From a virus: a stretch of DNA of 37,837 bases. Position numbers and translations under genes: made by a program. Positions 8,275 through 37,499 of the stretch are shown one piece after another. The notes under the pieces are model-generated. The model was not told the DNA's origin. It saw only the letters and a program-made list of their open reading frames with translations, and ran no database searches. Location: positions 1 through 37,837 of the IMG/VR virus record IMGVR_UViG_3300045999_010741; one strand, written 5' to 3'. Each line of letters opens with the position of its first letter. Position 1 is the stretch's first letter.

Positions 8275-8303
8275 ATGATAGCACCTATTTTATCTTTGAT
8301 CAA
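8275..8303 (-). promoter_or_regulatory. Promoter candidate for the 271-residue gene
   Basis: On the minus strand, TTGATC (8303-8298), a 17-base spacer and TATCAT (8280-8275) are followed by six bases and the ATG at 8268. The -35 box lies in the last codons of the upstream gene. The predicted transcript would begin at or next to the start codon. Confidence 0.5.
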
Positions 8304-9441
8304 GTGAAAAAATATAAAAACTATTAGATTCTTTCCAAAACTCTGGATCATCTACAACTTTTCGGCCATTTTTATTTAACCAATCAAATTTAGAATTAAA
8401 TTGGCCCTGAGAGGATACAATTATTTTAGACGAGATATAGAACATATTTGATACATCTTGTATATTTGTTTGTTTTTTATTATTATAGGTTTTTTGAAAT
8501 ATTAGATTATAATCCATATAATTGATTTTATATTTATTTAAATCATTATCATTTAGATAAGATATAAGAACATAGTTTATACCTAATTTCTTTAATTCCT
8601 TAACAAAATTTGAGTCATTATTATCGTCAATAATATACATCAATTGTGGTATATTACTCTGATAATGCTTCAATAATTCTGTATTTATAGGTTTATCTGT
8701 TACTATAATACATTTCTTCTTTTGTAAGAATATCTCAAGTCCTTGCTCATTAAAAGAGTAATCCATTCTAATAATTGGATTTGCAATAGGGATCGAGTCT
8801 GGATTAATTAATTGATCAAGGATAACTTCAAATGTCTTATTAAAATATTCTTCTCCTACATAAATAGTTTTTGGCATTTTTTCATAGTTTATATTCAATA
8901 GATCTAGAATTCCTTTAGCTATCTCTTCTGGTTTAATCTTATTTATATTCTTTGGATTTTCTCCTGCTGAATAAGATGGTTTTTTCGTTCCCTCTTTAGG
9001 ATTAATTAATACTAGGTCTTCGTCTTTAGACCAATATGGTTTTACATTTTCTATATTATTATTACTATAAATTGCTACAATTTTCTTATTATAACCAGAA
9101 GCTATGTGTGCCGCAAAACTATCAGCTCCAACATGCATGATTCCATTTTTGATTATAAAAGCTGCTTGAGATATATTAGTTTGACCAGCTAGATATAAAG
9201 TACTATTAAATGGCTTATCATCTTTTACGCCAAGTTGTACAATTTTAATATTTTGTTTATTTAGATAAGGGATAATGATGTCTATAACTTCTTGCCAGAA
9301 ATCATAGTTTTTAGAAGGATATTTACTAAATGGTTGAAAAGATATATATCTATCTACAGTTAATGGAAAGAAACTATCATAGATATAAGGTCTACCAATT
9401 TTAACTCCGCATGAAGTAGCATATCTCTCAAGAAGATGCAT
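8290..9441 (-). CDS. GT9-like glycosyltransferase, C-terminal part
   Basis: A 383-residue protein. I place the start at the ATG at 9441, because GGAG (9452-9449) is seven bases from it but only one base from the alternative TTG at 9447. The sequence opens with HLLERYATSCGVKIGRP, which matches the inter-domain linker of heptosyltransferase-type (GT9) enzymes. It continues with the GT9 C-terminal Rossmann fold: ISFQPFSKYPSKNYDFW, IKIVQLG, and MHVGADSFAAHIASG for nucleotide-sugar binding (residues about 30-140). The missing GT9 N-terminal domain is at the end of the upstream gene, which overlaps by 14 bases. The two chains may together form one GT9 enzyme. The last ~190 residues (from about residue 190) are an unassigned domain with alternating strands and helices. 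Confidence 0.65.
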   Translation of the reverse strand: MHLLERYATSCGVKIGRPYIYDSFFPLTVDRYISFQPFSKYPSKNYDFWQEVIDIIIPYLNKQNIKIVQLGVKDDKPFNSTLYLAGQTNISQAAFIIKNGIMHVGADSFAAHIASGYNKKIVAIYSNNNIENVKPYWSKDEDLVLINPKEGTKKPSYSAGENPKNINKIKPEEIAKGILDLLNINYEKMPKTIYVGEEYFNKTFEVILDQLINPDSIPIANPIIRMDYSFNEQGLEIFLQKKKCIIVTDKPINTELLKHYQSNIPQLMYIIDDNNDSNFVKELKKLGINYVLISYLNDNDLNKYKINYMDYNLIFQKTYNNKKQTNIQDVSNMFYISSKIIVSSQGQFNSKFDWLNKNGRKVVDDPEFWKESNSFYIFSLDQR

Positions 9442-11362
9442 AATCAAACTCCTTTATATTAAATTGAATTTTAGTCTTTCCATTATGGATATAATCTAAA
9501 AATCTTTGAGTACCAGCAAAAGGTAAAAACGCAATTTCAAAATAACCTTCATGATTTCCAGCTCCTTCTAGCCACAAGATTTGATCCATTTGTGGAACAT
9601 ATTGTAATACTTTATGAATGAATGGATTACCTTGCAATATATCAAAATACTCTGGTTTTACCGCAACATATAGGTTATAATCAGGATATTGTCTTTTGAT
9701 ATTCTCAAAAAGTGCCGTAGACATGTAAATATCGCCTATAGATTCTGGCATTACATATAATATTCTTCTACCTTTATCATCTTTATCCAATAAATCTTCG
9801 AATTCTATTTTCTTATTCTTTTCATTCTCTTGTAAAGCTACATGTCTGAAGTAATTTTCAATATCCTGTCTTTTTGCGCCTTTTTTAAATTCATTCATCC
9901 AATATTTATGACCATCATCATTCTCATCAACATGTTTCATCTTTAAAACTTTATGATATAGTTCCGTAAGCCATTTAGCGTTATCTTCTAAGTTTTCAAT
10001 CTGAACATATGGATCTTTCTCTTCTTCTTTTAAAGAAAAATCATAATCTGTAAATGGTGCAGCGTCTATAAAAGCTTCTATCTTTTTTCCTATGCTTTCC
10101 ACCGAGAAATTTGTTATGGTCCACTCTCTAGCATTTTTTCCAATCTCTCTTCTTTTTGTGGGCGACATATTGTAAACTTTATTTAATTGTTTTGCTATTG
10201 AGTTTGGTTTTGTTGAGGCTTTAATAAATTCTGTACCATGCTCGCGATACTCTGACCAATCTAATTCTAAAGATCCAGCGCCTTCTTCACACATTTCTTC
10301 TCCGCAAGAATAATTTGTAACCAATGTAATTAGTTCTGTCAATTTAGCTTCTTGTATTGGAATCTCTTGACCTCCACTTGTAAACGGATGACAATATACA
10401 TCCATAAGATTATAGACTTCATTTAATTGATCTTCTGTAACTCCTAAAGCCACATTGGTAGTTGTTTGACTTTTTTCAGAATTACAGAATCTACAATTAA
10501 CATCTTGGCCATGAAATGGTTTAATTTCATAGTTGCCACATCTCTTGCAAATATATGTAGTTAATATCTCTCTTAAATCAATGTCATATTCTTTAGCTAA
10601 TTTTGGAATATTCCATCCCTCACTCCAATGAGTATGTAAAAGTAAAAATGTGTTTTTAATCTGTGGATTGGATCTTTTCCAGAGAGCATATCCTTCAAGT
10701 AGGTTTGGAACACTTTTTCTTAATTGATTTCTAAATACAAAACCAACTATAAATGCGTCTTGAGGTATACCAAATCTGGCTCTTAATTCTTTTCTTTTTA
10801 GTTCTTCTAGTCTATAGAAGTTCTTGGTCTCAATTGGTCCATGCATTGTTTCTACATGTTGGTGTCCTAAATTATTAAGAGCTTTTGTTGCAAAATTACT
10901 CCAAATCCAATAGTTTTTTATTTTTGGCGCTTTCTCAACTGCTGTAGGTAAAATTGGCAACGAGTCAAGAGTTGTCCATAAGACAGAAGTTATTTTATTA
11001 AACCATTTCTTATCAATAGCAAAATCAATACCCCAAATATCTTGAACAGCTATATAGACATCTGGTTTTTCCTCTTGTATAACCCTATCTAGGTAGTGCG
11101 CACCATAACTTGCTAGTCTAGCTACATTTGGATCGCGATTTAATTGTTCAATTTCTTGAGGATTATCTGGTAATGCTCCTAATGATTTCCAAGGTGTTTT
11201 CTTTAATTCTGGATTAGAATATTGTAAACCACAAGCATAATTTACTATATCATATTTTCCAGTATGATATAAATAAGACAACAAGGCTCTTGTAGCTCTG
11301 CCAAAACCAGTTTTAGCAAGAGAAAAATCTGATTGATATACTATTTTCTTTTTACGAGACAC
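9428..11362 (-). CDS. GT4-type glycosyltransferase fused to a GT9 N-terminal domain
   Basis: A 644-residue protein with a GTG start at 11362; no ATG lies near the conserved N-terminus KKKIVYQSDFSLAKTGFGRA. Residues 1-430 are a GT-B, GT4-like glycosyltransferase: GFVFRNQLRKSVPNLLEGY opens the second Rossmann domain and SGGQEIPIQEAKL stands at the donor-binding E-x(n)-E site. An insertion at residues 272-293 has C272xxC275 and C290xxC293, a zinc-ribbon pattern unusual for GT4. From residue 531 the sequence turns into a GT9 N-terminal domain (RRILYVMPESIGDIYMSTAL, then NPFIHKVLQY) and stops at residue 644 just where the GT9 second domain should follow. That domain is in the next gene. This is the only glycosyltransferase gene pair inside the replication block. 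Confidence 0.7.
   Translation of the reverse strand: MSRKKKIVYQSDFSLAKTGFGRATRALLSYLYHTGKYDIVNYACGLQYSNPELKKTPWKSLGALPDNPQEIEQLNRDPNVARLASYGAHYLDRVIQEEKPDVYIAVQDIWGIDFAIDKKWFNKITSVLWTTLDSLPILPTAVEKAPKIKNYWIWSNFATKALNNLGHQHVETMHGPIETKNFYRLEELKRKELRARFGIPQDAFIVGFVFRNQLRKSVPNLLEGYALWKRSNPQIKNTFLLLHTHWSEGWNIPKLAKEYDIDLREILTTYICKRCGNYEIKPFHGQDVNCRFCNSEKSQTTTNVALGVTEDQLNEVYNLMDVYCHPFTSGGQEIPIQEAKLTELITLVTNYSCGEEMCEEGAGSLELDWSEYREHGTEFIKASTKPNSIAKQLNKVYNMSPTKRREIGKNAREWTITNFSVESIGKKIEAFIDAAPFTDYDFSLKEEEKDPYVQIENLEDNAKWLTELYHKVLKMKHVDENDDGHKYWMNEFKKGAKRQDIENYFRHVALQENEKNKKIEFEDLLDKDDKGRRILYVMPESIGDIYMSTALFENIKRQYPDYNLYVAVKPEYFDILQGNPFIHKVLQYVPQMDQILWLEGAGNHEGYFEIAFLPFAGTQRFLDYIHNGKTKIQFNIKEFDYASS
9449..9452 (-). 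promoter_or_regulatory. Shine-Dalgarno GGAG that sets the start of the GT9 C-terminal gene
   Basis: GGAG on the minus strand lies seven bases before the ATG at 9441, inside the end of the upstream gene. It favours reinitiation at this ATG over the TTG two codons earlier, and supports two separate polypeptides over a frameshift fusion. Confidence 0.7.
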
Positions 11363-11365
11363 AGT

Positions 11366-11908: not shown

Positions 11909-11914
11909 ATAAGT

Positions 11915-11943
11915 ATATTATTCTTTATTATTATCTTTGTCAA
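11915..11943 (-). promoter_or_regulatory. Promoter candidate for the SSB-like gene
   Basis: On the minus strand, a perfect TTGACA (11943-11938), a 17-base spacer and TAATAT (11920-11915) are followed by six bases and the ATG at 11908. It overlaps the last codons of the polymerase gene. There is no Shine-Dalgarno sequence between the -10 box and the ATG. Confidence 0.6.
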
Positions 11944-14720: not shown

Positions 14721-14721
14721 A

Positions 14722-16106: not shown

Positions 16107-16113
16107 TCTATTT

Positions 16114-16142
16114 AGTATAACTTAGATTCTACGCTAAATCAA
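16114..16142 (-). promoter_or_regulatory. Promoter candidate for the PHP-exonuclease-polymerase unit
   Basis: On the minus strand, TTGATT (16142-16137), a 17-base spacer and TATACT (16119-16114) are followed by seven bases and the ATG at 16106. The -35 box overlaps the stop codon of the upstream nuclease gene. Confidence 0.5.
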
Positions 16143-17107
16143 TCTAAAAATTCATCTTCTTTCTTATCCAAGAACTCATCTTTATTATTAATATTATTAA
16201 ATTTAGGGCATCCAAGATATTTTCTTTTTTCTATTTTAAATCCTTTCATATCTTTAAATTTACCATCCAAGCTAGATTCTACGGCTTCACCTTTTTCATT
16301 CAATTTTACATAATATTCATAAGAGTCTCTATATGGACATCTCCAATTACCAATCCCACACATCCATTTATTTTTATCACTATCTATAGCAAAATTTGCT
16401 TTAGCAGAGTCTTCATTAAATTTATTAATATAATCATTAATATGTTCTAGATAATGCTCAAAGCCCTTAATCTGATCTTCTGTAAATTCAAGTTCTTGTA
16501 TTGGCTGTTTAGGAAATCTAAGAAATAAGAATCTTACAATAGGTTTAAGTTTTGGCCATAATTTTTTACTAGCTAAACTATACATCATAGCTTGAATATT
16601 AGCTTCAAGGTCATCTCCCCTAAATTTAGCCTTGGAGCTTTTATAGTCAATTATAACCATTTTATTTTTTGATTTAATAGGCTTATCAATAAAGCCCTTA
16701 ATATGGTATTTAGGGCTATCATTTTTAATTTCAAAAGCATATTCTGGAGATACGATCTCGCCATCTTTTTCGCCAAAGAAATCATGTTTTAAACCAACCA
16801 TAATCATCTGATCAAGAATCTCAAAATTTGATTCATCTAATCCGACTTTGGCTTTTAATTTTTTAACTAATCTTGTTATTTCTTTGCTACCTTTAATAGA
16901 ATTCTTTTTTATGATTTTAGTATAATGTGATTTATGCTTTGGATTCAAAAGAAGCTCAAAAACTGTGTGACATATCGTGCCTCTTAGCGCGCCATCATTT
17001 TGAGTCTGCGGAATCTTAGCGTGATAATTATTCCAATATACCCAAGAACAAGTCTCAAGCGTTTTGATTCTAGATGCGGATAATACTTTTAGAGATTGTT
17101 TTTCCAT
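16139..17107 (-). CDS. Cas4/RecB-like PD-(D/E)XK nuclease with Cys cluster
   Basis: A 322-residue protein. The motifs run in RecB/Cas4 order: LSASRIKTLETC (residues 9-20), RGTICHTVFELLL with H47, GFIDKPI with D141, IIDYKSS with D154 and K156, and QAMMYSLA with Q172. Cysteines at 20, 250, 257 and 300 (ETC, WMCGIGNWRC, LGC) match the four-Cys iron-sulfur arrangement of Cas4 and AddB nucleases. It probably acts on DNA ends in phage replication or recombination. It lies between primase and polymerase PHP genes and overlaps the primase by 19 bases. The C-terminus has a short duplicated DEFLD motif. No helicase domain is attached. Confidence 0.85.
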   Translation of the reverse strand: MEKQSLKVLSASRIKTLETCSWVYWNNYHAKIPQTQNDGALRGTICHTVFELLLNPKHKSHYTKIIKKNSIKGSKEITRLVKKLKAKVGLDESNFEILDQMIMVGLKHDFFGEKDGEIVSPEYAFEIKNDSPKYHIKGFIDKPIKSKNKMVIIDYKSSKAKFRGDDLEANIQAMMYSLASKKLWPKLKPIVRFLFLRFPKQPIQELEFTEDQIKGFEHYLEHINDYINKFNEDSAKANFAIDSDKNKWMCGIGNWRCPYRDSYEYYVKLNEKGEAVESSLDGKFKDMKGFKIEKRKYLGCPKFNNINNKDEFLDKKEDEFLD

Positions 17108-17994
17108 TGTAAAATTTCTTCTTTTGTCATTTCACCAAAATCTTTTCTTATTGGTAAAGCTATTTTAATTTGATTATCATCAAAGTATCTTTTTAATCTA
17201 GAATATATTTTTTCTGCACCAATATTACCTGCATTATTATTATTCGAATCATTATTTAAGCTTACATATATCTTTTTCGCGTCAATTTTAAGACAATAAT
17301 TTAATATAGTTAAACTAAGATTTGTGCCAAATGTAACCAATACATTCTTGATGCCAGCTTGCCATAGACTTAACATATCTCCAATACTCTCGACAAGTAT
17401 TACTTCCTTGAGATCTTCTATCATATTTTTATTTAAAAACAATGGATAGAGAAAATCATTCTTTTCTCCAAGATGTTTCCATTTAATTTTTGAAACATTA
17501 GTTACATCCCTGCCAGAAAAACCTATAATGTTATTATTAACATCAAATATTGGGAAAACATATCTATTCTTCATTTTGCCAGCTTTTCCAACTCCACCTT
17601 TAAATTCTATTAAGGTCTCGTCTTTAACGCCTCTCTTATTCCAGTATAGATTGTCTTTATCTAAATTAGATAATAAATTTAAATCAAATTTTTTTGTTGA
17701 TTTAATTAATGGTTTGGGCATCTCTTGAGGTTGATGAAAAGCAAAATTTTTATTTTTAAGCCATTCCTTACCTTTATTTGGATCTTCTAGCTTTAGTGTC
17801 ATGCTAATTAATGAGCTAAAATCCCCACTGATATTCTCTTTAAAATCAAACCAATGACCAGAGTCTTTATATATCTTTAAAACTGTATCATTATCACTGT
17901 CTCTATAAAGAGGTTTTGCTCTATACTCTTTACCATAATCTTTTAATTTATATCCGAGATCTGTTAAGATCTGATATACATTTACTTCGTCCAT
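17089..17994 (-). CDS. DnaG-like DNA primase (TOPRIM), Cys-less zinc-finger region
   Basis: A 301-residue protein. Residues 20-65 follow the layout of the DnaG zinc-binding domain (EYRAKPLYRDSDNDT, then GHWFDFKENISGDFSSLI) but contain none of its Cys ligands. Residues 115-170 form the RNA-polymerase-like part (YWNKRGVKDETLIEF, NRYVFPIFD). The TOPRIM core has VILVESIGD with E202, then YVSLNNDS where the usual DxD reads N247-N248-D249, and LPIRKDFGEM with D285. It should make RNA primers for the DnaB-type helicase. GAGG seven bases before the ATG gives the start, which overlaps the end of thyX. At half the size of bacterial DnaG it lacks a helicase-binding C-terminal domain. Confidence 0.85.
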   Translation of the reverse strand: MDEVNVYQILTDLGYKLKDYGKEYRAKPLYRDSDNDTVLKIYKDSGHWFDFKENISGDFSSLISMTLKLEDPNKGKEWLKNKNFAFHQPQEMPKPLIKSTKKFDLNLLSNLDKDNLYWNKRGVKDETLIEFKGGVGKAGKMKNRYVFPIFDVNNNIIGFSGRDVTNVSKIKWKHLGEKNDFLYPLFLNKNMIEDLKEVILVESIGDMLSLWQAGIKNVLVTFGTNLSLTILNYCLKIDAKKIYVSLNNDSNNNNAGNIGAEKIYSRLKRYFDDNQIKIALPIRKDFGEMTKEEILQWKNNL

Positions 17995-18638
17995 TCTAGT
18001 GCCTCGCTTATTGTAGGAAATTCTTTAACAAATATTTTTTTACATCTTTCAGCGATCTCTCTATGTTCTTTTTGAGTATTTTGTTCGGTTCTTAAGTCAA
18101 TGTAATGAATCCAGCTTCTTAATGAGCCTTTCATGTACATTGTGGTTTGTGTTGTTAAGGGTAATATCATTCTGGCGACTTCCTTTGCGACACCATTCTC
18201 TATCATAGTTTCATAACAATGTTGAGATAAAGACAATGACTCTACTAACAATTCATTAACTTTATCATATGCATCTGTACCTATTGGCATTAATTTTTCA
18301 CCAACTTGTCTATTTTTATCTCCCTGCAAACGAAGTTCAATATCTTCAAACTCATTTGCGATACTATATCTTTGGCTAAATTCTTGAAAACTAAATGATC
18401 TATGCCTAAGAATCTGAGCGGCAATACCACGGCTAGTTTTGATTTCAACACACATATCAACTAGTTCAAATGGACTCCAATGCTTGTGCTTTATTAAAAA
18501 CTTTAAAAGTTTTGGAGCAGTTTCTGTATTCATCTGATTAGATGGATTACTAACTCTTGCACAAAATGCGACAAGATCTTCGGCATTTTTAATTCCTTTA
18601 ATTTCTGGTTTTGTTATTGATATTAATTCTACGTTCAT
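17982..18638 (-). CDS. thyX: Flavin-dependent thymidylate synthase ThyX
   Basis: A 218-residue protein. The ThyX signature RHRx7S is at residues 78-88 (RHRSFSFQEFS), followed by QRY. WIHYIDLRTEQNTQKEHREIA near residue 177 supplies the dUMP-binding Arg region. It converts dUMP to dTMP using FAD and methylenetetrahydrofolate, supplying thymidylate for an AT-rich genome. GGAG seven bases before the ATG is a strong ribosome-binding site. The start overlaps the helicase gene end by four bases and its own end overlaps the primase gene by 13. The length is typical of the family. Confidence 0.97.
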   Translation of the reverse strand: MNVELISITKPEIKGIKNAEDLVAFCARVSNPSNQMNTETAPKLLKFLIKHKHWSPFELVDMCVEIKTSRGIAAQILRHRSFSFQEFSQRYSIANEFEDIELRLQGDKNRQVGEKLMPIGTDAYDKVNELLVESLSLSQHCYETMIENGVAKEVARMILPLTTQTTMYMKGSLRSWIHYIDLRTEQNTQKEHREIAERCKKIFVKEFPTISEALEWTK

Positions 18639-20129: not shown

Positions 20130-20158
20130 ATGATACCAAAGTAAAAATTAAAAGTCAA
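20130..20158 (-). promoter_or_regulatory. Promoter candidate for the helicase unit
   Basis: On the minus strand, TTGACT (20158-20153), a 17-base spacer and TATCAT (20135-20130) are followed by ten bases and the ATG at 20119. This is the longest gap in the replication block (20120-20167). Confidence 0.6.
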
Positions 20159-20440: not shown

Positions 20441-20449
20441 TTTTTACAC

Positions 20450-22014: not shown

Positions 22015-22043
22015 ATCTTATCACTTATTTGTGTTATTTGCAA
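22015..22043 (-). promoter_or_regulatory. Weak promoter candidate for the recA unit
   Basis: On the minus strand, TTGCAA (22043-22038), a 17-base spacer and TAAGAT (22020-22015) are followed by six bases and the ATG at 22008. Each box matches consensus at four of six positions; the geometry is the same as at the stronger sites. Confidence 0.35.
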
Positions 22044-26156: not shown

Positions 26157-26165
26157 GTATATCTA

Positions 26166-26194
26166 ATACTATAATATATATTAATATATGTCAA
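26166..26194 (-). promoter_or_regulatory. Promoter candidate for the ColD-like/gmd unit
   Basis: On the minus strand, a perfect TTGACA (26194-26189), a 17-base spacer and TAGTAT (26171-26166) are followed by nine bases and the ATG at 26156. It fills the 40-base gap after the epimerase gene. No Shine-Dalgarno sequence is present. Confidence 0.55.
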
Positions 26195-26196
26195 TA

Positions 26197-27725: not shown

Positions 27726-28348
27726 TTTGTTAAATCTAGAAACTCTTTTATTTTACAATGCGCACCAAAACAATCGTTCCAACTTCTTTGAAGTTCTGGT
27801 ATATCTCCACCCCAGCTAAATTTAGCAGCAATTTCAACTGGTGCATATTTTAAACCGCTTTTCTCTATCAATTCTTTATTCGTAGAGCAAACGACTATAT
27901 CTTCTTGATTACTATTTATATTGATATCTGGCCATGAACATCTTTCTATAAATCTTTTAGACCTTAGAGAGAATCCTCCATTTCCTACTCTTGTATTATG
28001 CAGTGTTCCATGAATCCAAGGAGCGCCAATATAATCATAATCTAAGAATGCATTATTCCAAGCGTTAATATTAGTTATATATCCATCTGTCTGAACTATT
28101 AATGCATAATCAGAATTTATATATGAAGATAAATTTTTTATTAAGAATCTATTATATTCTGGATATGTAAACTTTTTAACTTGAATAAATTCATAATCAT
28201 ATTTTATGTTTGGTTTTTCGAAAGAAAAAAGTTTTACTGAGTGAAAATTACATAAACTAGTGCAATAGTTTAAAACTTTTGCTGATTGATTTGGATCAAT
28301 CCCATCAATTAAAACGCAAGACACTCTCTGTAGATCTAATTTATTCAT
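27722..28348 (-). CDS. DUF5672-like putative glycosyltransferase
   Basis: A 208-residue protein. The segment ALIVQTDGYITNINAW, then YDYIGAPW and VGNGGFSLRSKRF (residues about 82-140), is the DUF5672 signature. That family is GT-A-like and often found in glycan loci. QTDG may supply the metal-binding acidic residue. It overlaps the next gene upstream by eight bases and the methyltransferase by four. The sugar and acceptor are unknown. Confidence 0.75.
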   Translation of the reverse strand: MNKLDLQRVSCVLIDGIDPNQSAKVLNYCTSLCNFHSVKLFSFEKPNIKYDYEFIQVKKFTYPEYNRFLIKNLSSYINSDYALIVQTDGYITNINAWNNAFLDYDYIGAPWIHGTLHNTRVGNGGFSLRSKRFIERCSWPDININSNQEDIVVCSTNKELIEKSGLKYAPVEIAAKFSWGGDIPELQRSWNDCFGAHCKIKEFLDLTK

Positions 28349-29099
28349 TTATAATTTTTGGGATATCTATCTTATTTTTTGCATAGAATTCAAGATTTAA
28401 TTCAAGTTGATTGGTCTCATAATTCCATTTATAACCACAATGACCAAAATGTTTCATTTGATATTCATATTTATCCTTACCATTTGAATGTAACCATGTC
28501 ATATGTTTAACATGGACTATATCTTTTGGTATTTGTTTATTCGATAAATTTTTATAAGATACTGTACCACCATACTTATCTTTATATATTATATCATTAT
28601 CCCAATAAAATTCATTTACCTCTTTATCATTAAATCGAGTCCTAAATATTCTCGGAGGACAGAATCCATCGATCCATTGTTTTCCATCAAATACATAATT
28701 TTTAAAATTAAGACTATACCAACAATAATCTTGATTTAATCTAATATAATTAATAATGTTTTCTATATCTTTATGCGAATAGAATTCATCTGCATCAACT
28801 AACCATATAAGATCGGAATTAATTACCTTTAAATATTGAAGACATAGATCCCTAGCTTTATGTTCCTGTATATAATTTGGACCTGTAAATACATTATCTA
28901 TTTTATTATCATTGTATAATCCTAATAAGAATTCGGTAGTACCATCATTTTCTTTATTTATATCAAAATACTCTAAAAATGGTAAAGAAACTGCGGATAT
29001 ATTCAAATGAAATCTATCTTTTAGATTTATAAAAGGAGCAATAGTATCTTTAGCATACTTTATACTATTATAACCACAATAAATTATTCCGATTGACAT
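28341..29099 (-). CDS. GT2-like glycosyltransferase
   Basis: A 252-residue protein. MSIGIIYCGYNSIKYAKDTI opens a GT-A fold, HKARDLCLQYL precedes the DxD motif LIWLVDADEFYSH (near residues 98-110), and WLHSNGKDKYEYQMKHFGHCGY lies near the end. No membrane segment is present. A promoter-like element ends seven bases before the ATG and no Shine-Dalgarno sequence is visible, so it may begin a new transcript inside the cluster. Confidence 0.75.
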   Translation of the reverse strand: MSIGIIYCGYNSIKYAKDTIAPFINLKDRFHLNISAVSLPFLEYFDINKENDGTTEFLLGLYNDNKIDNVFTGPNYIQEHKARDLCLQYLKVINSDLIWLVDADEFYSHKDIENIINYIRLNQDYCWYSLNFKNYVFDGKQWIDGFCPPRIFRTRFNDKEVNEFYWDNDIIYKDKYGGTVSYKNLSNKQIPKDIVHVKHMTWLHSNGKDKYEYQMKHFGHCGYKWNYETNQLELNLEFYAKNKIDIPKIINE

Positions 29100-29106
29100 A
29101 AAGGTA

Positions 29107-29134
29107 TTTATAAATACTACAGAATATCTCTCAA
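29107..29134 (-). promoter_or_regulatory. Promoter candidate inside the sugar cluster
   Basis: On the minus strand, TTGAGA (29134-29129), a 16-base spacer and TATAAA (29112-29107) are followed by seven bases and the ATG at 29099. The same stretch contains the palindrome TATTTATAAATA (29105-29116). Confidence 0.45.
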
Positions 29135-29899
29135 TTTATCAAAAGAATTAAAATCTAGATAGTAAGATCTTTTTGGTTCATGTATCCACATATCGTCTGT
29201 ATAAAGGAAGTTGGGCATCCATACTCCGCCTTCCCATCCTAAACCAGCTATAAAACATATACATGTTGCGCCACTAGCTATCGCTAAATGATGCATACCA
29301 CTTTCTACTCCTATATATAAACCCGCTGCTTTTATGACCGAAGCGACTTCTCTAAATGTGAGATTAAAATCTAAAATTTCTACATTCTTTAATAATCTGT
29401 GTTCATCACTTAATGCTATGAAAGTATATTTATCTTTATAAGTATCTATGATCCTCTGCCATTGATCTAGTGGAGCCATTCTTAGATTGCAAGGTTGTTG
29501 TAATTTAGGATTAAAACCACCAGAAAATGGACTAATTATAATTGGATTCTTATATTTCAGTAAATAATTCCTTCCGAATACCAAATCGTCTAGGTTGAAA
29601 TTTATCCAAGGAATATAATTATTATGTTTTATATCAAAACATTTAAACCAAGCTTTAATTGTATTTTCAAATATTGGTTTTTCAAATTTTCCATATTTTT
29701 TTATAGTATATTCTTGATCAATTGGACTATCAGTATAAATTACCTCGGTCATACCATAGAATATTGAAGCGACTTTTTTACCTCTACTCGTAGGAACTAT
29801 CTCGAATTTAGTCTTATTCATATATCTATAAAGAGGAGTAAATAACATTAGCTCTCCTAAAACTGGAACTTTTAAGCCAAATTCAAATTCGTATTCCAT
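29117..29899 (-). CDS. GT9-like (heptosyltransferase-fold) glycosyltransferase
   Basis: A 260-residue protein with the GT-B layout of GT9. The N-terminus LKVPVLGELMLFTPLYRY stands where GT9 has xxGDxxxxxPL, followed by PIIISPFSGGF (residues about 118-128) and the donor site YIGVESGMHHLAIASGAT near residue 195. It is shorter than typical GT9 enzymes (about 330). It ends in TAG, 17 bases before the next start, and is the third of three consecutive GT9-like genes. Confidence 0.72.
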   Translation of the reverse strand: MEYEFEFGLKVPVLGELMLFTPLYRYMNKTKFEIVPTSRGKKVASIFYGMTEVIYTDSPIDQEYTIKKYGKFEKPIFENTIKAWFKCFDIKHNNYIPWINFNLDDLVFGRNYLLKYKNPIIISPFSGGFNPKLQQPCNLRMAPLDQWQRIIDTYKDKYTFIALSDEHRLLKNVEILDFNLTFREVASVIKAAGLYIGVESGMHHLAIASGATCICFIAGLGWEGGVWMPNFLYTDDMWIHEPKRSYYLDFNSFDKLRDIL

Positions 29900-29900
29900 A

Positions 29901-30692
29901 TTAAAAATTAAAGTCTAAATGATCTAATGCCTGCTGCCATTTCGTCATGCAGAAATATTTAGCTCTTATATCTTCTCCTTTCCATAAGTAATCATCAACA
30001 TAAGCATAATCCCAAAATGGATAATAATCAAGATTCATGGGAATTACTTCTAGGACTTTACCTCCTACAGCTATCATTAAGAATGGATCTCCAGTATCAG
30101 AAAATAGACCTTTACCAATTACCTTATAACATGCGGCAAGTTGTCTAAGATTTAGATTTGGTATATTTATAACTTTGTCATAAGTAACAATTCCGCCTCT
30201 ACCATTAGTATAAAAATCGCTAGTAATACCAAATTGTAATATTGTATATTTTTTTGATAAAGTATCTATAAAGACTTTATTCATCTCTTCTGTAAATGTT
30301 CTAGCTCTCGCCCCATAATTTGTTGGGTCCCAAGAGCAACTATTATTTGGAGTATAAACTATCGGATTATCATATTTTATTAAAAAGTTTTTTGCCCACT
30401 CAATCTCTTCATCTTTTAGAATAACAAATGGTATTGCATTTACATCATCAATCCCAAGCGCATTTAACATTCTTTGACTTCTATGAATCCTTTCTTTTGT
30501 TTGCGGGCATTCTGGCGCAGGGTTTTTACTAAATGAAACATCGCAAATACCATCTAGCAAAACAGCTTTACCCTTTGCTACTTCGTCATCAATAATTTCT
30601 AATATACCATTCTTAATCTTTTTAAAAATAGGAGTCACTGTCATTAAATCTCCTAGGTTACCAACATGAAATCCTATTTTAAATTTATTCAT
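29901..30692 (-). CDS. GT9-like glycosyltransferase
   Basis: A 263-residue protein. FHVGNLGDLMTVTPIFKKI (residues 8-26) is the GT9 N-terminal motif. DNPIVYTPNNSCSW and YTILQFGI mark the start of the second Rossmann domain. FSDTGDPFLMIAVGGKVLEV replaces the donor-site GxDSGxxHLAxA pattern and lacks its His, a divergence that may change donor choice or activity. Middle member of the GT9 trio; it overlaps its upstream neighbour by four bases. Confidence 0.7.
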   Translation of the reverse strand: MNKFKIGFHVGNLGDLMTVTPIFKKIKNGILEIIDDEVAKGKAVLLDGICDVSFSKNPAPECPQTKERIHRSQRMLNALGIDDVNAIPFVILKDEEIEWAKNFLIKYDNPIVYTPNNSCSWDPTNYGARARTFTEEMNKVFIDTLSKKYTILQFGITSDFYTNGRGGIVTYDKVINIPNLNLRQLAACYKVIGKGLFSDTGDPFLMIAVGGKVLEVIPMNLDYYPFWDYAYVDDYLWKGEDIRAKYFCMTKWQQALDHLDFNF

Positions 30693-31555
30693 TTTAATTG
30701 CTCTATAGAATTAATTATCTGATCTTGAGTAATACAATCTTTACCATCTAAGCCTATTAAATCAATCTTATTGTTAAGATAGTTCTCGGGTGCAAATGCA
30801 GAGTAATTCCTAATATGATTTAGTGCATTTTTTAATACTAAATTAATTTGAGGAAATCCATAGGCTCCTATAACCCAACTTGATCCAGAATCTGTGCCTA
30901 TAGAAAGCTTGCAACCAAGGGTAATCCTTATCATTTCAAAAAAACTAAGATCTGTCATCTTAAAATATTTGCTAATTCCTTCGTCAATATTAGGTTCATT
31001 TTCCGCTCCAAAATGAAGTATAGTATAATTAAATTTCTTATCTATGACTTTTAAAGTTTCTTTCCACCAGTTAACAGATGGATTTCGATCTGTATCAACA
31101 CCATAGCAAGCAAATGGCCAAATAGCTATAGTATCTTCATATTTATTTAATTTAAACCATTTTTCTAGTTTAGGCTTTCTTAAAGCTTCTGGCATTGATT
31201 GAAAATCTTGTAAATTTATACCTGCCATTCTGACCGTTTCCTCAATGCAATTATAATCATTATACCAGTCTGTTTTATCTGGATGTTCTGGAAATGGATT
31301 AATCGCTATATTACATTCTTGCGCCATCTTTACATCATCGTCTGATAATCCTTCATGTTTTCCTAGTATATGTATTCTATCTATTAATGGATGATTAATG
31401 AATAGTGGTGCAGATTGGCTTGTTTTTTGAGATATAGGAAATATTTTATAAGAGTTTTTATATTTAATATCGAGATAATTTAAAACGGGAAGAAACATAA
31501 TTGTATCCCCTATTAAAGAAGCTCTTCCTGCGAATATCCTAAAATTCTTATCCAT
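30689..31555 (-). CDS. GT9-like glycosyltransferase
   Basis: A 288-residue protein. FAGRASLIGDTIMFLPVLNYL (first 30 residues) matches the GT9 N-terminal motif, TIAIWPFACYG the inter-domain region, and LSIGTDSGSSWVIGAYGFPQ the donor site near residue 217. It overlaps both neighbours by four to eight bases. A near-consensus promoter-like element lies inside the upstream gene, seven bases before its ATG, so it may also be transcribed independently. Confidence 0.75.
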   Translation of the reverse strand: MDKNFRIFAGRASLIGDTIMFLPVLNYLDIKYKNSYKIFPISQKTSQSAPLFINHPLIDRIHILGKHEGLSDDDVKMAQECNIAINPFPEHPDKTDWYNDYNCIEETVRMAGINLQDFQSMPEALRKPKLEKWFKLNKYEDTIAIWPFACYGVDTDRNPSVNWWKETLKVIDKKFNYTILHFGAENEPNIDEGISKYFKMTDLSFFEMIRITLGCKLSIGTDSGSSWVIGAYGFPQINLVLKNALNHIRNYSAFAPENYLNNKIDLIGLDGKDCITQDQIINSIEQLK

Positions 31556-32417
31556 TATATGTATTATATACGTTTATTATATTCTCAGCAATCTTTACTT
31601 TATTAAATTGAGCCTTATACTTCTCACCATATTTTATCGCAATCTTCTGATATGTTTGATAATTTTTATTTAGATCATATATCTTATTTGCAATCTTTGA
31701 GGGATTTGGTTCTACTAAGAATTCTGGAGGAGAAAATTCGTGAGCAGTAACATTATCTAAACATGTAATTGGTATAGATCCGCATATTAAAGCTTCAATC
31801 ATTGGTAATCCTATTCCTTCATTTTTTGAAGGTAAAAATAAAAATTTAGATGTATTATAATATATATTTAAATCTTCGTCAGATACTGGACCAATGTATT
31901 TACCAAAGTTAGGATTCTCATTACCACAGATATTTATCAACGATAAACCATTCTCTATTAGACTTAAAGTTTGATATACTAAACCAATTCTTTTATTAAA
32001 GTCATTAGCTCTTCCAACGTATAAAAAAACTTTATCTTTTTTTAATGAACTATCGTAAAAAACATCTTTAACTGGATTGTATATAACAGACACTTCTTTG
32101 TCTACAAGATCTTGAAGATCATCTCTTACTGTTTCACTTATAGTAGTTATTGCGTCTGCTTTATTTAAATAATAAGACCATTCTTCTATTAGAACATCAA
32201 CATTAGATAAATGCCAAGGTATATCTAATATATTTAATATTAAATATCCTCCTTTTGATTCTTTCAACTCTAAAGCGTCTTTATAACCTCCTGTATCATT
32301 TGAATATATAATATCAGGATTTTCATAATTTATATTATGATTTAATAATATAAGCCCTTGTTTTATTCTTGGTATTTGACATGTTAAACATTCCCCACCA
32401 AATAATGCAATATTCAT
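31548..32417 (-). CDS. GT4-family glycosyltransferase
   Basis: A 289-residue GT-B enzyme. VFLYVGRANDFNKRIGLVYQ (residues about 130-148) opens the donor domain, and SKNEGIGLPMIEALICGSIP contains the E-x7-E motif that holds the nucleotide sugar. The N-terminal domain is short (NIALFGGECLTCQI), so the protein is smaller than most GT4 enzymes (350-400). It overlaps neighbours by four and eight bases. Confidence 0.85.
   Translation of the reverse strand: MNIALFGGECLTCQIPRIKQGLILLNHNINYENPDIIYSNDTGGYKDALELKESKGGYLILNILDIPWHLSNVDVLIEEWSYYLNKADAITTISETVRDDLQDLVDKEVSVIYNPVKDVFYDSSLKKDKVFLYVGRANDFNKRIGLVYQTLSLIENGLSLINICGNENPNFGKYIGPVSDEDLNIYYNTSKFLFLPSKNEGIGLPMIEALICGSIPITCLDNVTAHEFSPPEFLVEPNPSKIANKIYDLNKNYQTYQKIAIKYGEKYKAQFNKVKIAENIINVYNTYNG
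31563..31591 (-). promoter_or_regulatory. Internal promoter candidate for the GT9 gene at 30689-31555
   Basis: On the minus strand, TTGCTG (31591-31586), a 17-base spacer and a perfect TATAAT (31568-31563) are followed by seven bases and the ATG at 31555. It lies inside the end of the GT4 gene. Confidence 0.4.
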
Positions 32418-33193
32418 ATAGAAAGATTATGTTTAAATATTTCTATTTTATCAAAAACAGATTTTTCATGTATTATATCTTCTACATCATATCCTGCGCG
32501 GTTAGACCAAACTGGTTGCCAAGTATTATTTTGTCTTTTTCTATCTTCCCAATTTAACCATCCAAGATGAATTATAAATGGTAAATCATACTGTTTAATC
32601 TTTGATATTGATATATTCTGACATAAAAATGTAGATAAGCAAAGTTGATTATTATTATTTAAAAGTTCGCATGTATCAGATCTTTTTATATCTATTTTTC
32701 CATTCGGTAGTTCTGCATTTTTCCAAATGCCTCGATGAAGACCCTGTTTATGCATATACCATTTAGCTCCAATAGACTTATAATGATTTATATCTTTGCA
32801 TAGATCTATAACTGGTAAAAATATTGCTTCATATTGAGAAGTTAAGAATTGATTTGCAATATTAAACCAAGAATCTTTATTTGGGCTTGGATATTCATCT
32901 AAATCCAATCCAATGCATATATCATTCCTACAATTTTGTAGAGCTGCATTTTTAATTTTTCCGTCAAAAGCATAATCTTCGTAATCAAAATCTGTCTCAA
33001 TAATTTTTATTTTATCTTGAAAGTTTGATTGAAGAGCGCTAACGCTTTGGTCTATATCTTTGTTTACAGCAATAACTATTTCACCTTTATCTCCATCCTC
33101 TATAAAGTCTATCCATTTTGGAATGGTAAGTTTCCAATAATTAAAATTATTCTTGTTTAAGTTGAAACAAGAAGCATATATACTATATTTCAT
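32414..33193 (-). CDS. GT2-like glycosyltransferase
   Basis: A 259-residue protein with a GT-A outline: MKYSIYASCFNLNKNNFNYW, DGKIKNAALQNCRNDICIGL and the metal site LDLDEYPSP near residues 95-103. HLGWLNWEDRKRQNNTW is near the end. The N-terminal GT2 Asp signature is weak, so family assignment is by the LDLDE motif and layout. Four-base overlaps join it to both neighbouring GT4 genes. Confidence 0.65.
   Translation of the reverse strand: MKYSIYASCFNLNKNNFNYWKLTIPKWIDFIEDGDKGEIVIAVNKDIDQSVSALQSNFQDKIKIIETDFDYEDYAFDGKIKNAALQNCRNDICIGLDLDEYPSPNKDSWFNIANQFLTSQYEAIFLPVIDLCKDINHYKSIGAKWYMHKQGLHRGIWKNAELPNGKIDIKRSDTCELLNNNNQLCLSTFLCQNISISKIKQYDLPFIIHLGWLNWEDRKRQNNTWQPVWSNRAGYDVEDIIHEKSVFDKIEIFKHNLSI
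32426..32454 (-). promoter_or_regulatory. Internal promoter candidate for the GT4 gene at 31548-32417
   Basis: On the minus strand, TTGATA (32454-32449), a 17-base spacer and CATAAT (32431-32426) are followed by eight bases and the ATG at 32417. It lies inside the end of the preceding gene. Confidence 0.35.
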
Positions 33194-34203
33194 TTTATGG
33201 ATTTATAATAATTTACTAATGTTTCTATCTCTTTATCTACGTGAAATTTTTTAGAATATTCAAATACTTTTTTTCTATCTATCTTTTGTACGACTTGCAC
33301 GGCTGTAACTAATTGATTTTTTTCTTTGATAAATATACCATTATCTTGAACTAATTCTGGAGTGGCTCCAGAATCAAAATGTATAACTGGTACACCCTTA
33401 GATAGAGCTTCAATAGTTGTCCTACCAAATGATTCTTGTAATCTTGAAAATTGACAAAATGCTATAGCTTTAGAAAAGACTGAACTATGATCTTTATATC
33501 TATCTAAAAATCCGCCAAATTTAAAATTTGGAAAATTTGGCTCTACTTCTTTTCTTAGATACTCCTCTATCCTACCATCCCCCATTCCATAAGCTAGAAA
33601 ATTATATTCTGGATAAATAGAAGATAGCTCTATAAATATATCAAGTCCTTTTGCTTGAAAGCCCCAAAAAAGACTTGCACACCAAAGAAAATATTCACCT
33701 TTTTCTTGAAAGGAAAAGTCTTCTTCCAATAAAGAGGTATAACATAAAAATGAATTTTTACCTAGTTCTGGTCTATTATTTATGCATCTTTCCATTTGAG
33801 TCCTAGATATGAATTTAAAATGTACATTATTTTCTCTTTGTCCTGTTTCTCCTAAAACACCATCTCCTCCACCATGCACATTTACAAATACTGGGCATTT
33901 TGCTGTATTTAATTTCCAATGGAAACTTTGGGTGATAATTAGATCTGGATTCAAACCAATAGCGATATCTATTGCCTCATTTTGATAATTTGATCCAATA
34001 TGGTATTTCTCTGGTAAAGATTCTGTCTCTATAATATTAAAAGGATATTCTTTTTTATCTTTTCTTTTAGCGCATATAACATAAAAAGTATAACCATTTT
34101 TATTTAAACCTTCTGCAAGTCTTTCTGTGCATCCTTCAGACCCACCACATGCTGGATGTGGAAATTCATAATCATATCCAGATCCTATTAGAACAATTTT
34201 CAT
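33190..34203 (-). CDS. GT4-family glycosyltransferase
   Basis: A 337-residue GT-B enzyme. HPACGGSEGCTERLAEGL (residues about 16-33) is the acceptor-domain glycine loop, YFLWCASLFWGFQAKGLDIF opens the second domain, and SRLQESFGRTTIEALSKGVP has the E-x7-E donor motif, followed by DSGATPELV. All GT4 core elements are present, so it is likely active. AGGA eight bases before the ATG gives a ribosome-binding site, in addition to the four-base overlap with the upstream gene. Confidence 0.88.
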   Translation of the reverse strand: MKIVLIGSGYDYEFPHPACGGSEGCTERLAEGLNKNGYTFYVICAKRKDKKEYPFNIIETESLPEKYHIGSNYQNEAIDIAIGLNPDLIITQSFHWKLNTAKCPVFVNVHGGGDGVLGETGQRENNVHFKFISRTQMERCINNRPELGKNSFLCYTSLLEEDFSFQEKGEYFLWCASLFWGFQAKGLDIFIELSSIYPEYNFLAYGMGDGRIEEYLRKEVEPNFPNFKFGGFLDRYKDHSSVFSKAIAFCQFSRLQESFGRTTIEALSKGVPVIHFDSGATPELVQDNGIFIKEKNQLVTAVQVVQKIDRKKVFEYSKKFHVDKEIETLVNYYKSIK

Positions 34204-35063
34204 ATATTAATTCCTATGTCTTTTAGATTCCAAATCTTTTCATCTAATTTAATTGTCTGCAAGTCATGTTTTAAAATATGCCATCTGTAGAATGTTTTTA
34301 ATATTTCTTCTCGGTTGAACATTTCGCAAAAATATGAATCTGTTTTCCATTCTTCTTTAGAAAGATATTCCTTAAGAGAATCTAAAGTAAAGTCTAATCC
34401 TAATTGAGAGCAATAAATCCTAAATTTCTGTCTGTTCATTTCTAGATCTTGATATTCTTGAGGCTTGTCCTCTCTTCCTAATAAAAGATGATTTGACCTT
34501 CCGTATACAAAGTAATATTTTGCAAAATGATCTATATAATTACTTAATGGTCTCCCACCTTCCTCGCCATCTAGAAGTCTATATGCGTAATCTCTTTCTT
34601 TTTCAAAGATTTGCAACATATTTAAATATTTAGGTCTTGCATTTCTTAAGCCCCAATGAGGATTTCCAAAGAAGAATAGATCATCATAATATTCAAAGCC
34701 AAAACCTTTTCCATTATTATGAACAAATCTAATTTGATTTTTCTGAAAATAATTTACATAGTTTTTTATTTCTTTAACAAAATTTATATTAAATCTTTCC
34801 ATAGAATCTCTAAGGAAGATCCAGTCACCTATCTTTGCTGGTCCTTGTCTTAATATCTCATTGTTCTGATAATCAAAATCATTTGTCCAATTTCTATATA
34901 TTACCTTACCGCATCCTTTTCTTTCTTCTAGTAGCTCTTTTGTTCCATCGGTAGAGCCGCCATCAACTGCAATAATACCATCAAAATATTGATAACAATC
35001 TTTTGTAAGTTCATCTACATTTTTATACTCATTATGAGTTATTATTCCAAGATATATTTTCAT
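34200..35063 (-). CDS. GT2-like glycosyltransferase with altered DxD motif
   Basis: A 287-residue protein. MKIYLGIITHNEYKNVDELT and IIAVDGGSTDGTKELLEE (residues 30-47) are clear GT2 motifs. At the catalytic metal site, where GT2 enzymes have DADER, it reads RDSMERF (near residue 87), keeping the first Asp and the Glu but losing the second Asp. The enzyme may use a different metal arrangement or be inactive. The rest contains a long charged region (residues 100-250) without recognised motifs. It overlaps both neighbours by four bases. Confidence 0.72.
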   Translation of the reverse strand: MKIYLGIITHNEYKNVDELTKDCYQYFDGIIAVDGGSTDGTKELLEERKGCGKVIYRNWTNDFDYQNNEILRQGPAKIGDWIFLRDSMERFNINFVKEIKNYVNYFQKNQIRFVHNNGKGFGFEYYDDLFFFGNPHWGLRNARPKYLNMLQIFEKERDYAYRLLDGEEGGRPLSNYIDHFAKYYFVYGRSNHLLLGREDKPQEYQDLEMNRQKFRIYCSQLGLDFTLDSLKEYLSKEEWKTDSYFCEMFNREEILKTFYRWHILKHDLQTIKLDEKIWNLKDIGINI

Positions 35064-35860
35064 TTATTTATATTTACGTTCCAATGAACAAAGCTGCAAT
35101 TCTTTAATCTTTCTGGGATTTCACCATTCCATTTTTGATCTCTTAAAACTTGTTCCCACTCTTGATCATTAAACTGAGGATATACATGCTTTTCTTTTAC
35201 TGGACCTTTGGTAAGCCAATGTTGCTTTGTATCTGTCCTGTGTAACCATTCTGATCCGTCTGGATTAATATTACAACTAAAGCATCCCATATCCATGCAT
35301 AGTGGCGGATCAACATTTACTAATTTTTTAGTCTTTTGTAAATATTTTTGCGTAAAACTTTCATTAGTTTCTCTTGCGGAATATGGTCCTGGACCACCGC
35401 AGGGCATCTCTAATGCTAATTCACGATATCTTAAAGTATTAGCAAAGAATGCCCTTTGAGAAAAATTCCCTTGAGTTGCCATGCCAATCGGAGATATAAA
35501 TTCATATCCTTCCTTTTCTATCTTACTAATCCAAAGATCTAGCTCTTCTCTTTCAAAATTCCTCAAAAAGGTTTGGTCTCCTTCGATATAAAAACCATAA
35601 TCTGTATTGCAATAATTAAATAGATCTACCGCTCCATATCCTGCGCCATTATTTTCTTTATTAAGAATAAGTTTATTAAATAAACCTTTATTATACATTT
35701 CATAATGATAATCTTGTTGTCCACCATTTGCATGAACAATTATCTGATAATTTAATTTAACATATTTTCTAATAGAATTTAGCACCATACTTAATTCATT
35801 TGGTCTATTATAGTCTAATAGTAAAAATGAAAAATCATATTTGTTTTCTAAGTTTGTCAT
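35060..35860 (-). CDS. GT-A glycosyltransferase-like protein
   Basis: A 266-residue protein. FLLLDYNRPNELSMVLNSIR and YQIIVHANGGQ near residues 12-48 resemble the GT2 N-terminus, and FYIEGDQTFLRNF (about 109-121) stands at the DxD site as EGDQ. A Gly-rich segment (MPCGGPGPYSARET) and MDMGCFSCNINPDGSEW follow. GGAG about ten bases before the ATG is a good ribosome-binding site, one base after the carbamoyltransferase gene ends. Donor and acceptor are unknown. Confidence 0.65.
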   Translation of the reverse strand: MTNLENKYDFSFLLLDYNRPNELSMVLNSIRKYVKLNYQIIVHANGGQQDYHYEMYNKGLFNKLILNKENNGAGYGAVDLFNYCNTDYGFYIEGDQTFLRNFEREELDLWISKIEKEGYEFISPIGMATQGNFSQRAFFANTLRYRELALEMPCGGPGPYSARETNESFTQKYLQKTKKLVNVDPPLCMDMGCFSCNINPDGSEWLHRTDTKQHWLTKGPVKEKHVYPQFNDQEWEQVLRDQKWNGEIPERLKNCSFVHWNVNINK

Positions 35861-35861
35861 A

Positions 35862-37463
35862 TTAATTTCTCTCCATAATCTTATTGTTTATAACCATGAT
35901 ATCTACTGGTGTATTTTTAAAGAATCTCTCTGCGTCCTCTATAGTCTCTACAATTGGTTCTCCATTACAATTTAAACTAGTATTAAGAACCATAGGAACT
36001 TGTGTTTTTTCATAAAAACTTTTAATCATATTATAATAATTTTTATTTAAATCTAGCGATACTGTCTGCATTCTGGCAGAATTATCTACATGTGTTATAG
36101 CTGGAATATCTTTTGGTCTTTTTACATCGGCAGTAAATAACATAAATGGGCTTTTATTTTCAAAATCAAACCATTCTGAGCATTTCTCTTGAAGGACGGA
36201 TGGTGCAAAAGGTCTATACCATTCTCGTCTTTTTACAATAAAATTAATAATTTCTCTATTATGAAAATTTCTAGGATCTGCTAGGATCGATCTATTTCCT
36301 AAAGCTCTTGGCCCATATTCTGATCTACCTTGATACCATCCTATAATCTTTCCTTTAGAAAGCATAGACGATATATAATCCGCGTCTATATCTATTTCAT
36401 TTTCAGAGTAATTTTTCCCTAAATAGCAAATATCTCTATCTTGGTAATTAAATCTTTCCTCTCCCAAGATATTATGTGCAACATATAAAGCTGCGCCAAC
36501 GCATATACCATCATCTCCACAAGCTGGAAAGAGATGTAGATTTTTATATTTAGATTTATTTAATATTAAAGAGTTAGTATTACAATTAAGCATCGAGCCA
36601 CCAGAAAGACATAGGTTATATACTCCTTCTGTATTTTCTATATTATTAATTGTGTCTAAAATACAATTTTCAAATATATATTGAATTGTTGCAGCGATAT
36701 TCATCGCTCGAAGTGAATCACTCTCTCTATGCTCAAAATCTATTGGGCTTTCAGCAATATCAAGCCACATCATTCTATACAATTCATCGTGAATAAAATC
36801 TTTCTCTGTATATCCTAAATTTGTATATCTTTCTTTGTTATTAAGAACTTTACTAATAATTTTACCATAACAAGCAAGTCCCATTGTAGATCCAGCTTTG
36901 TATAATGGATCTCCAATGCCTAATTTTTGAGTAAACATAGCATATGCATTTCCAATCATAAGATTTGGGCATGCTACTGCGTCTATTTTTTTTCCGTTCC
37001 CAAATGCAATAAGTGAGTTTGCTCCTCTATGCCCTCCACTTGAATCAACACTAAAACAATATGATTTATCAAAATTACTGGTATAGAAAGCTGATGAACA
37101 ATGAGACAATTGATGTGCAATTACAAATGCAGGTATCTTGTAATTATTTATAATAAAATGTCCTTGAGCTACTTCATTGCCAAATAATTTTTGATTTGTA
37201 TCTTGGATCTCAAGATTATTTATATATAATCTTATATCTTGTCCAGCCTTATCAAGAGAATAGTCTGAAACCCCGATTGCGTCTATATCTTTTATTGAAA
37301 TATTTGCTTGCGATAAAACATAATCTATCGCTTCGATAGTCATTCCTGCATGCTTTTTTATTCTAGTAATTCTTTCGAGACTTATCGCTGATATCAATCT
37401 GCCATCTTTTACTAGAGCTACAGAACTATCATGACCAAAGTGTAATCCTAGTATATTTGCCAT
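35862..37463 (-). CDS. NodU/TobZ-type carbamoyltransferase
   Basis: A 533-residue protein. The N-terminal Kae1/ASKHA-type domain shows ILGLHFGHDSSVALVKDG (4-21), HQLSHCSSAFY, FSVDSSGGHRG, SGGSMLNCNTN and GDDGICVGAAL. The YrdC-like-ligand C-terminal part has IGWYQGRSEYGPRALGNRSI and VLNTSLNCNGEPI. These are the conserved motifs of carbamoyltransferases that add a carbamoyl group from carbamoyl phosphate to a sugar hydroxyl using ATP (NodU, TobZ, CmcH). Here it probably decorates a sugar of the glycan made by the cluster. It is the first gene of the long minus-strand sugar unit, with a near-consensus promoter just upstream and no Shine-Dalgarno sequence. Confidence 0.93.
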   Translation of the reverse strand: MANILGLHFGHDSSVALVKDGRLISAISLERITRIKKHAGMTIEAIDYVLSQANISIKDIDAIGVSDYSLDKAGQDIRLYINNLEIQDTNQKLFGNEVAQGHFIINNYKIPAFVIAHQLSHCSSAFYTSNFDKSYCFSVDSSGGHRGANSLIAFGNGKKIDAVACPNLMIGNAYAMFTQKLGIGDPLYKAGSTMGLACYGKIISKVLNNKERYTNLGYTEKDFIHDELYRMMWLDIAESPIDFEHRESDSLRAMNIAATIQYIFENCILDTINNIENTEGVYNLCLSGGSMLNCNTNSLILNKSKYKNLHLFPACGDDGICVGAALYVAHNILGEERFNYQDRDICYLGKNYSENEIDIDADYISSMLSKGKIIGWYQGRSEYGPRALGNRSILADPRNFHNREIINFIVKRREWYRPFAPSVLQEKCSEWFDFENKSPFMLFTADVKRPKDIPAITHVDNSARMQTVSLDLNKNYYNMIKSFYEKTQVPMVLNTSLNCNGEPIVETIEDAERFFKNTPVDIMVINNKIMERN

Positions 37464-37470
37464 ATTTTAT

Positions 37471-37499
37471 ATTATATGGCTTTATTTTAGTAAAGTCAA
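37471..37499 (-). promoter_or_regulatory. Near-consensus promoter before the sugar cluster
   Basis: On the minus strand, TTGACT (37499-37494), a 17-base spacer and a perfect TATAAT (37476-37471) are followed by seven bases and the ATG at 37463. The N-terminal carbamoyltransferase motif starts at residue 4, so the start codon cannot lie further downstream. The transcript would begin at or next to the ATG. Confidence 0.7.

Follow-up and report, generated by a model that had tools for sequence, protein, structure and literature searches.

How are the first genes of operons read in a phage whose promoters appear to lie directly against the start codons? The question is raised by IMGVR_UViG_3300045999_010741, a 37,837-nt IMG/VR virus fragment of 30% GC (37.8 kb; this whole stretch is called the window below), which encodes a glycosylation cassette together with a replication module (DnaE-type polymerase, exonuclease, PHP domain, PD-(D/E)XK nuclease, primase, ThyX, DnaB and a RecA-like protein). 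The minus strand holds nearly all genes beyond 7 kb, arranged in overlapping runs with gaps of 9-48 nt between the runs. A preliminary description had pointed out -35 and -10 boxes at a nearly fixed distance from the ATG of eight lead genes and had proposed two modes of translation. Our analysis makes it highly probable that lead genes make leaderless mRNAs and that followers use Shine-Dalgarno (SD) motifs or coupling. The broader statement is that leaderless initiation is the genome-wide default for lead genes in a large phage lineage, with two start-abutting promoter classes (host sigma-70 and a phage extracytoplasmic function (ECF)-like sigma) and with SD motifs kept for operon-internal genes and a minority of leadered transcripts; we rate this as slightly better than an even chance.

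In the proposed mechanism, the promoters of most lead genes would be placed against the start codon, polymerase would start on the A of the AUG or 1-4 nt before it, and the first gene would be read as a (nearly) leaderless message; genes inside groups would be translated via SD motifs or overlap coupling. The sigma-70 class (TTGACA/T, 17 nt, TATAAT) is presumably read by host RNA polymerase. A second class, the element AGTGTAAT lacking a -35 box, would probably serve late or other phage genes; its plausible reader is host polymerase equipped with one of the two sigma-like proteins that the phages encode.

Promoter sites at the starts of lead genes

Sites were given a two-box score with matrices that approximate E. 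coli sigma-70 from general knowledge and were not fitted to this phage. Lead genes in the window are those whose upstream gap measures 9 nt or more (n = 11; coupled genes, n = 27), and a promoter was counted as near when it scored at least 6 and its -10 box ended 5-11 nt before the start. Each noted site was compared with 400 dinucleotide shuffles of its own upstream region. All eight -35 hexamers and the spacers of the preliminary description are present exactly as it gave them, each set with a -10 box, on the minus strand. The carbamoyltransferase gene starting at 37463 is preceded by TTGACT (37494-37499), 17 nt and TATAAT (37471-37476), 7 nt from the ATG (37471-37499; score 11.3, shuffle p < 0.0025). 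An equal score of 11.3 is reached before the DnaB helicase start at 20119 (20130-20158), where TTGACT, 17 nt and TATCAT after TGG, an extended -10, end 10 nt from the ATG. The DegT/DnrJ aminotransferase gene at 26156 has TTGACA, 17 nt and TAGTAT at 9 nt (26166-26194; 10.0, p < 0.0025), and the gene at 8268 has TTGATC, 17 nt and TATCAT at 6 nt (8275-8303; 9.2). They are followed in score by the gene at 11908 (TTGACA, 17 nt, TAATAT, 6 nt; 11915-11943; 8.3), the PHP-domain gene at 16106 (TTGATT, 17 nt, TATACT, 7 nt; 16114-16142; 8.2, p 0.0025) and the RecA-like gene at 22008 (TTGCAA, 17 nt, TAAGAT, 6 nt; 22015-22043; 7.0, p 0.0075). The weak candidate before 29099 (TTGAGA, 16 nt, TATAAA, 7 nt; 29107-29134) scores 4.8 with p 0.09; it is not significant alone, and the pattern is not seen in three distant orthologs. 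Seven of the eight sites are thus unusual against their own shuffles (p <= 0.0075). The site at 22008, previously singled out as the weaker one, is indeed weak but is only the next weakest after 29099. One further gene qualifies: on the plus strand, a candidate site (4995-5023; TGGAGT, 17 nt, TATAAT, 5 nt; 7.6, p 0.0025) precedes gene 5029-7239, which has no orthologs among the fetched loci.

Of the 1,263 internal ATGs, 6.7% have a near promoter scoring at least 6, compared with 9/11 lead genes (binomial p 1.4e-9) and 3/27 coupled genes; at a score of at least 8 the corresponding figures are 1.8%, 6/11 (p 1.6e-8) and 1/27. The nine include the plus-strand gene at 274, whose start is uncertain and which has no upstream gene in the window. 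Over the whole window, the count of promoter-like words is not above chance. The signal is therefore purely positional, and motif counting alone would have missed it. Two other minus-strand sites, at 31563-31591 and 32426-32454 (scores 9.1 and 7.7), fall within open reading frames (ORFs), each 7-8 nt ahead of the start of the next, overlapping gene (31555 and 32417, respectively); they are possible internal promoters.

The pattern recurs in 142 related loci and five long relatives. In the family set (the window plus the 142 loci, with starts dereplicated at 80% identity and grouped by the size of the upstream gap), a peak of TATAAT-like words 5-9 nt ahead of the ATG is confined to genes whose gaps measure 13-60 nt; it rises to 12% at 6 nt over a background of ~1%, and overlapping genes show no such peak. 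Among 237 lead genes preceded by gaps of 9-60 nt, 51% have a near promoter (score at least 6), against 4% of shuffles, and 24% reach a score of at least 10, against 0.08%. The positional peak is confined to 4-11 nt and to genes other than overlapping followers. TTGACA alone, searched with no anchoring, accumulates 28-32 nt before the start. The excess predicted at 6-10 nt from the ATG thus stands far above both shuffles and internal ATGs, in the window and in its relatives; the equal frequency that would have refuted the pattern was not seen. Among 175 strong sites, which follow TTGACA, TATAAT and ~17 nt, the spacer is 17 nt in 126 and 16 nt in 37, and the -10 box ends 5-11 nt from the start, most often at 6 nt (75/175). 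In standard sigma-70 geometry the -10 hexamer occupies -12 to -7; a -10 box 6 nt from the ATG would therefore place +1 on the A of the AUG.

Shine-Dalgarno motifs and ortholog conservation

The claim that the lead genes lack SD motifs and that several genes inside groups have them was borne out. Scored as GGAG, GAGG or AGGA at -17 to -4, an SD motif is found at 0/8 of the noted lead sites and is present at 7456, 9441, 14720, 17994, 18638, 34203 and 35860. Across the family, SD motifs accompany 20% of followers and 8% of lead genes. Genes whose best sigma-70 site is 4-11 nt away have an SD motif in 4/170 cases, compared with 11/64 when the site is further (p 1.7e-4); for the GTGTAA class the figures are 1/93 near and 12/45 far (p 5e-6). 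Since an SD motif cannot overlap a -10 box, the near-promoter values are partly trivial; the rise at greater promoter distance is the informative part of the contrast.

The two modes are also seen gene by gene in orthologs. Near-start promoters (score at least 6) were found for lead gene 8268 in 100% of 15 orthologs, 11908 in 80% of 46, 16106 in 65% of 55, 20119 in 76% of 49 and 22008 in 81% of 27, with SD motifs in 0-7% of the orthologs of these window lead genes. Gene 11908 retains TTGACA in diverged orthologs. Followers with at least 15 orthologs have promoters in 0-14%. An SD motif is conserved in 100% of 27 orthologs of the primase-like follower (17089-17994, minus strand; Toprim/DNAG_N; promoter 0%), in 92% of 26 orthologs of the follower ThyX (17982-18638, minus strand; Pfam Thy1; promoter 4%) and in 48% of 56 at 15360. 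Upstream of the lead gene for the DnaB-like helicase (18635-20119, minus strand; Pfam DnaB / DnaB_C), the alignment of ~40 orthologs reads CTTGACTTTT, a diverged spacer, TTTGGTATCAT and then the ATG.

The GTGTAA element and phage sigma-like proteins

In a de novo comparison GTGTAA was the top 6-mer: it precedes 98 lead genes, while the control region gave 1 and ~6 were expected from followers. The full element, AGTGTAAT, has no -35 box and is found mostly 7-8 nt upstream of the start, usually with an A in front of it; GTGTAAT accounts for a further 15% of lead genes. In the window, GTGTAAA (20443-20449, minus strand) precedes gene 20168-20434, which itself precedes DnaB and is a lead gene with no sigma-70 promoter, absent from the preliminary description. 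The element is found in 95% of 21 ortholog upstream regions, with SD motifs in 0%. Because the orthologs start at GTG, we moved the start of this gene from ATG 20440 to GTG 20434, 8 nt from GTGTAAA, where it probably begins. GTG start codons are used by 20/99 genes of the GTGTAA class versus 8/175 of the sigma-70 class. GTGTAAW is not enriched in the window (4 matches, 9 expected), so that the second class rests on the relatives. There, GTGTAA is over-represented in blocks that contain the terminase, as pooled from three long contigs (odds ratio 5.5, p 4e-4). Strict use of GTGTAAT for late genes was rejected, as the element is only enriched in terminase blocks and occurs in replication genes too.

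The relatives encode two sigma-like proteins, of ~200 and ~227 residues. The smaller has a match to sigma region 2, joined in several members by one to region 4. The larger is encoded just upstream of the terminase and matches region 2 in 7/7 members; this terminase-side protein may be the one that reads GTGTAAT. In a search of the PDB with its structure model, sigma factors rank first, none below E 0.02, which was too weak to assign a family name. It has no match in PHROGs or, by tblastn, in named phages, and it carries a conserved cysteine cluster after sigma region 2. Sigma-like genes are located at L191:1408-2091 and L188:1399-1998, with orthologs in other loci. A phage multisubunit polymerase was also considered; no Rpb2-type RNA polymerase subunit was found in 22 records, which may be fragments, whereas the controls matched. 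A search for a single-subunit (T7-type) polymerase gave no match, but its controls also failed to match, and here too the records may be fragments. Phage tuning of host initiation was considered as well, and no S21, IF3 or IF1/eIF-1A homologs were found in the 22 records.

Alternative readings and known systems

One alternative is that the arrangement is a by-product of AT-rich short gaps, in which a promoter has no room except close to the ATG and the GC content of 30% makes TATAAT-like words frequent. The chance-level count of promoter-like words in the window and the shortness of the lead gaps fit this explanation. At the same scores, however, shuffles, internal ATGs and coupled genes give only 1-7% (window coupled genes 11%), and four control phages of 28-36% GC (T4, HTVC008M, Slash and phiCDIF1296T, 40-45 kb each) give 0% strong near promoters, with SD motifs in 48-62% of their lead genes. 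Among orthologs the -35 and -10 hexamers are both conserved while the spacer diverges. Furthermore, hits per nucleotide at 4-11 nt are well above those further upstream for gaps of 21-35, 36-60, 61-120 and >120 nt. The peak stays in place for long gaps and so is not forced by short ones, and we regard a compositional origin as very improbable. A misplacement of the annotated starts, with the real ones downstream and the promoters ordinary and leadered, is likewise very improbable. Longest-ORF calling is biased upstream and proved wrong by two codons at 20440, but from codon 2 onwards the substitutions in three genes, DnaB among them, are at third codon positions (differences of 0.00-0.01 at position 2 versus 0.25-0.45 at position 3), and the Pfam match of DnaB begins at residue 3. 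The same test on gene 22008 gave no information on its start. In-frame stops lie closely upstream of the tested starts; in DnaB the stop is 3 nt before the ATG, which excludes an upstream start. Together, the third-position substitutions and the nearby stops argue that the start codons are correct.

An explanation that accepts the promoters as real is that translation starts from a leader of ~1-5 nt or through reinitiation, on read-through transcripts, by ribosomes that have finished the preceding gene, leaderless initiation proper being minor. Distances of 8-10 nt are common in some genes (mostly 9-10 nt in DnaB orthologs), and gaps of 9-48 nt are short enough to suit reinitiation. The commonest distance is nevertheless 6 nt, the same peak is present at gaps >60 nt, and SD motifs are depleted exactly at these starts. 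We therefore consider this explanation unlikely and prefer leaderless initiation at lead genes.

Several points weigh against leaderless initiation. The transcript 5' ends are deduced in every member, and the ability of the host to translate leaderless messages is presumed. Sites 9-10 nt from the start imply leaders of 3-4 nt, not none. The position matrices are only approximate E. coli values, the gene caller is home-made, and the relatives are not phylogenetically independent. The model of the ~227-residue sigma-like protein is of low confidence (pLDDT, predicted local distance difference test, 65.5). A promoter in nearly every gap between groups, as first described, is seen for 9/11 window leads, but the rule is not universal in the family: among lead genes preceded by gaps of 9-120 nt, ~39% show no promoter of either class and no SD motif at the thresholds used. 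A residual -10 peak among these unassigned genes suggests weaker promoters of the same kind.

In promoter arrangement, the closest likeness is to Thermus phages. P23-45 has promoters next to the start codon that give leaderless mRNA. For phiYS40, leaderless phage genes with extended -10 promoters are described (Sevostyanova et al. 2007, as related in PMC4842269). That phage has a thermophile host and, in 45 kb, strong near promoters at 11% of lead genes with SD motifs still at 37%, whereas this family has full TTGACA-17-TATAAT promoters and the GTGTAAT class. Five family members show near promoters at 15-29% and SD motifs at 4-22% of lead genes, with SD motifs higher in followers; P-SSM2 gives 7% and 13%, all control values being of limited precision owing to small lead-gene counts (15-33). 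Many bacteria, above all Actinobacteria and Deinococcus-Thermus, have leaderless genes whose -10 box lies ~12 nt upstream of the start, the distal genes of the operon being SD-led (PMC3160421, PMC12340547). These TA-led genes resemble this family in a -10 box ~6-12 nt from the start, an absent or minimal 5' untranslated region and a leaderless proximal gene. They belong to cellular genomes and are described by their -10 signal; the phage family differs in its second element and in a strong -35 box at almost every high-scoring site, a feature that the design of the two-box score favours. A 2017 paper remarked that transcripts of phages often lack a leader (PMC5312081). The GTGTAAT class shares with T4 late promoters a short -10-like element lacking a -35 box near structural genes, and a phage-encoded sigma region-2 protein. 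T4 late promoters read TATAAATA and are served by the gp55 sigma. The sequence AGTGTAAT differs from this, leaving the lack of a -35 box as the only shared part of the T4-type promoter definition, and it lies 7-8 nt before the start without an SD motif, whereas SD motifs are common in T4 lead genes (56%). A search of literature mostly outside subscription journals turned up no phage family described as using two classes of start-abutting promoter throughout its genome. The leaderless mode is known from Thermus phages, Actinobacteria and Deinococcus; its genome-wide use with two promoters appears to be new.

If leaderless initiation is the rule here, metagenome sequence alone would be enough to locate the promoters of an uncultured phage family and to delimit its transcription units, since each of these is anchored at a start codon. 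The family would also be a testable case of a phage relying on leaderless initiation for its replication genes, which should differ from SD-led host genes under initiation-factor changes, stress and kasugamycin, and it would suggest that the host belongs to a lineage efficient at translating leaderless mRNA. In genomes of this kind, gene finders that look for SD motifs may put starts in the wrong place, as longest-ORF calling did at 20440. For gene 8290-9447, ATG 9441, preceded by AAAGGAG at a normal distance, is a more likely start than TTG 9447.

Relatives of the window in IMG/VR are many, apparently from freshwater, as we take it from the metagenome identifiers, and the longest contig is 171.9 kb. 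There is no near nucleotide relative among named phages, and terminase relatives in named phages have only ~25% identity, mostly in Firmicutes phages. In searches aimed at identifying the host, the genome collection held no relatives of the window DnaB or carbamoyltransferase, and no WhiB was found in 30 relatives. The long minus-strand cassette at 22021-37463 combines glycosyltransferases, sugar-nucleotide enzymes and the carbamoyltransferase; several of its genes have no Pfam match, and few are shared with relatives that keep the replication module. The plus-strand block includes the gene of a large protein (274-3372) that has RCC1-type repeats by Pfam (RCC1_2, 1.7e-38), which is unusual in phage. 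Some relatives encode a transfer-messenger RNA (L154:10335-10725, minus strand; L180:9269-9657, plus strand; also L164 and L167), detected by Rfam RF00023 in two relatives (109-114 bits) and by ARAGORN in four. Its tag, AKTAKYKGHISARVSLVEETASVA, is identical among the relatives and unusual, ending in ASVA and not in the common ALAA.

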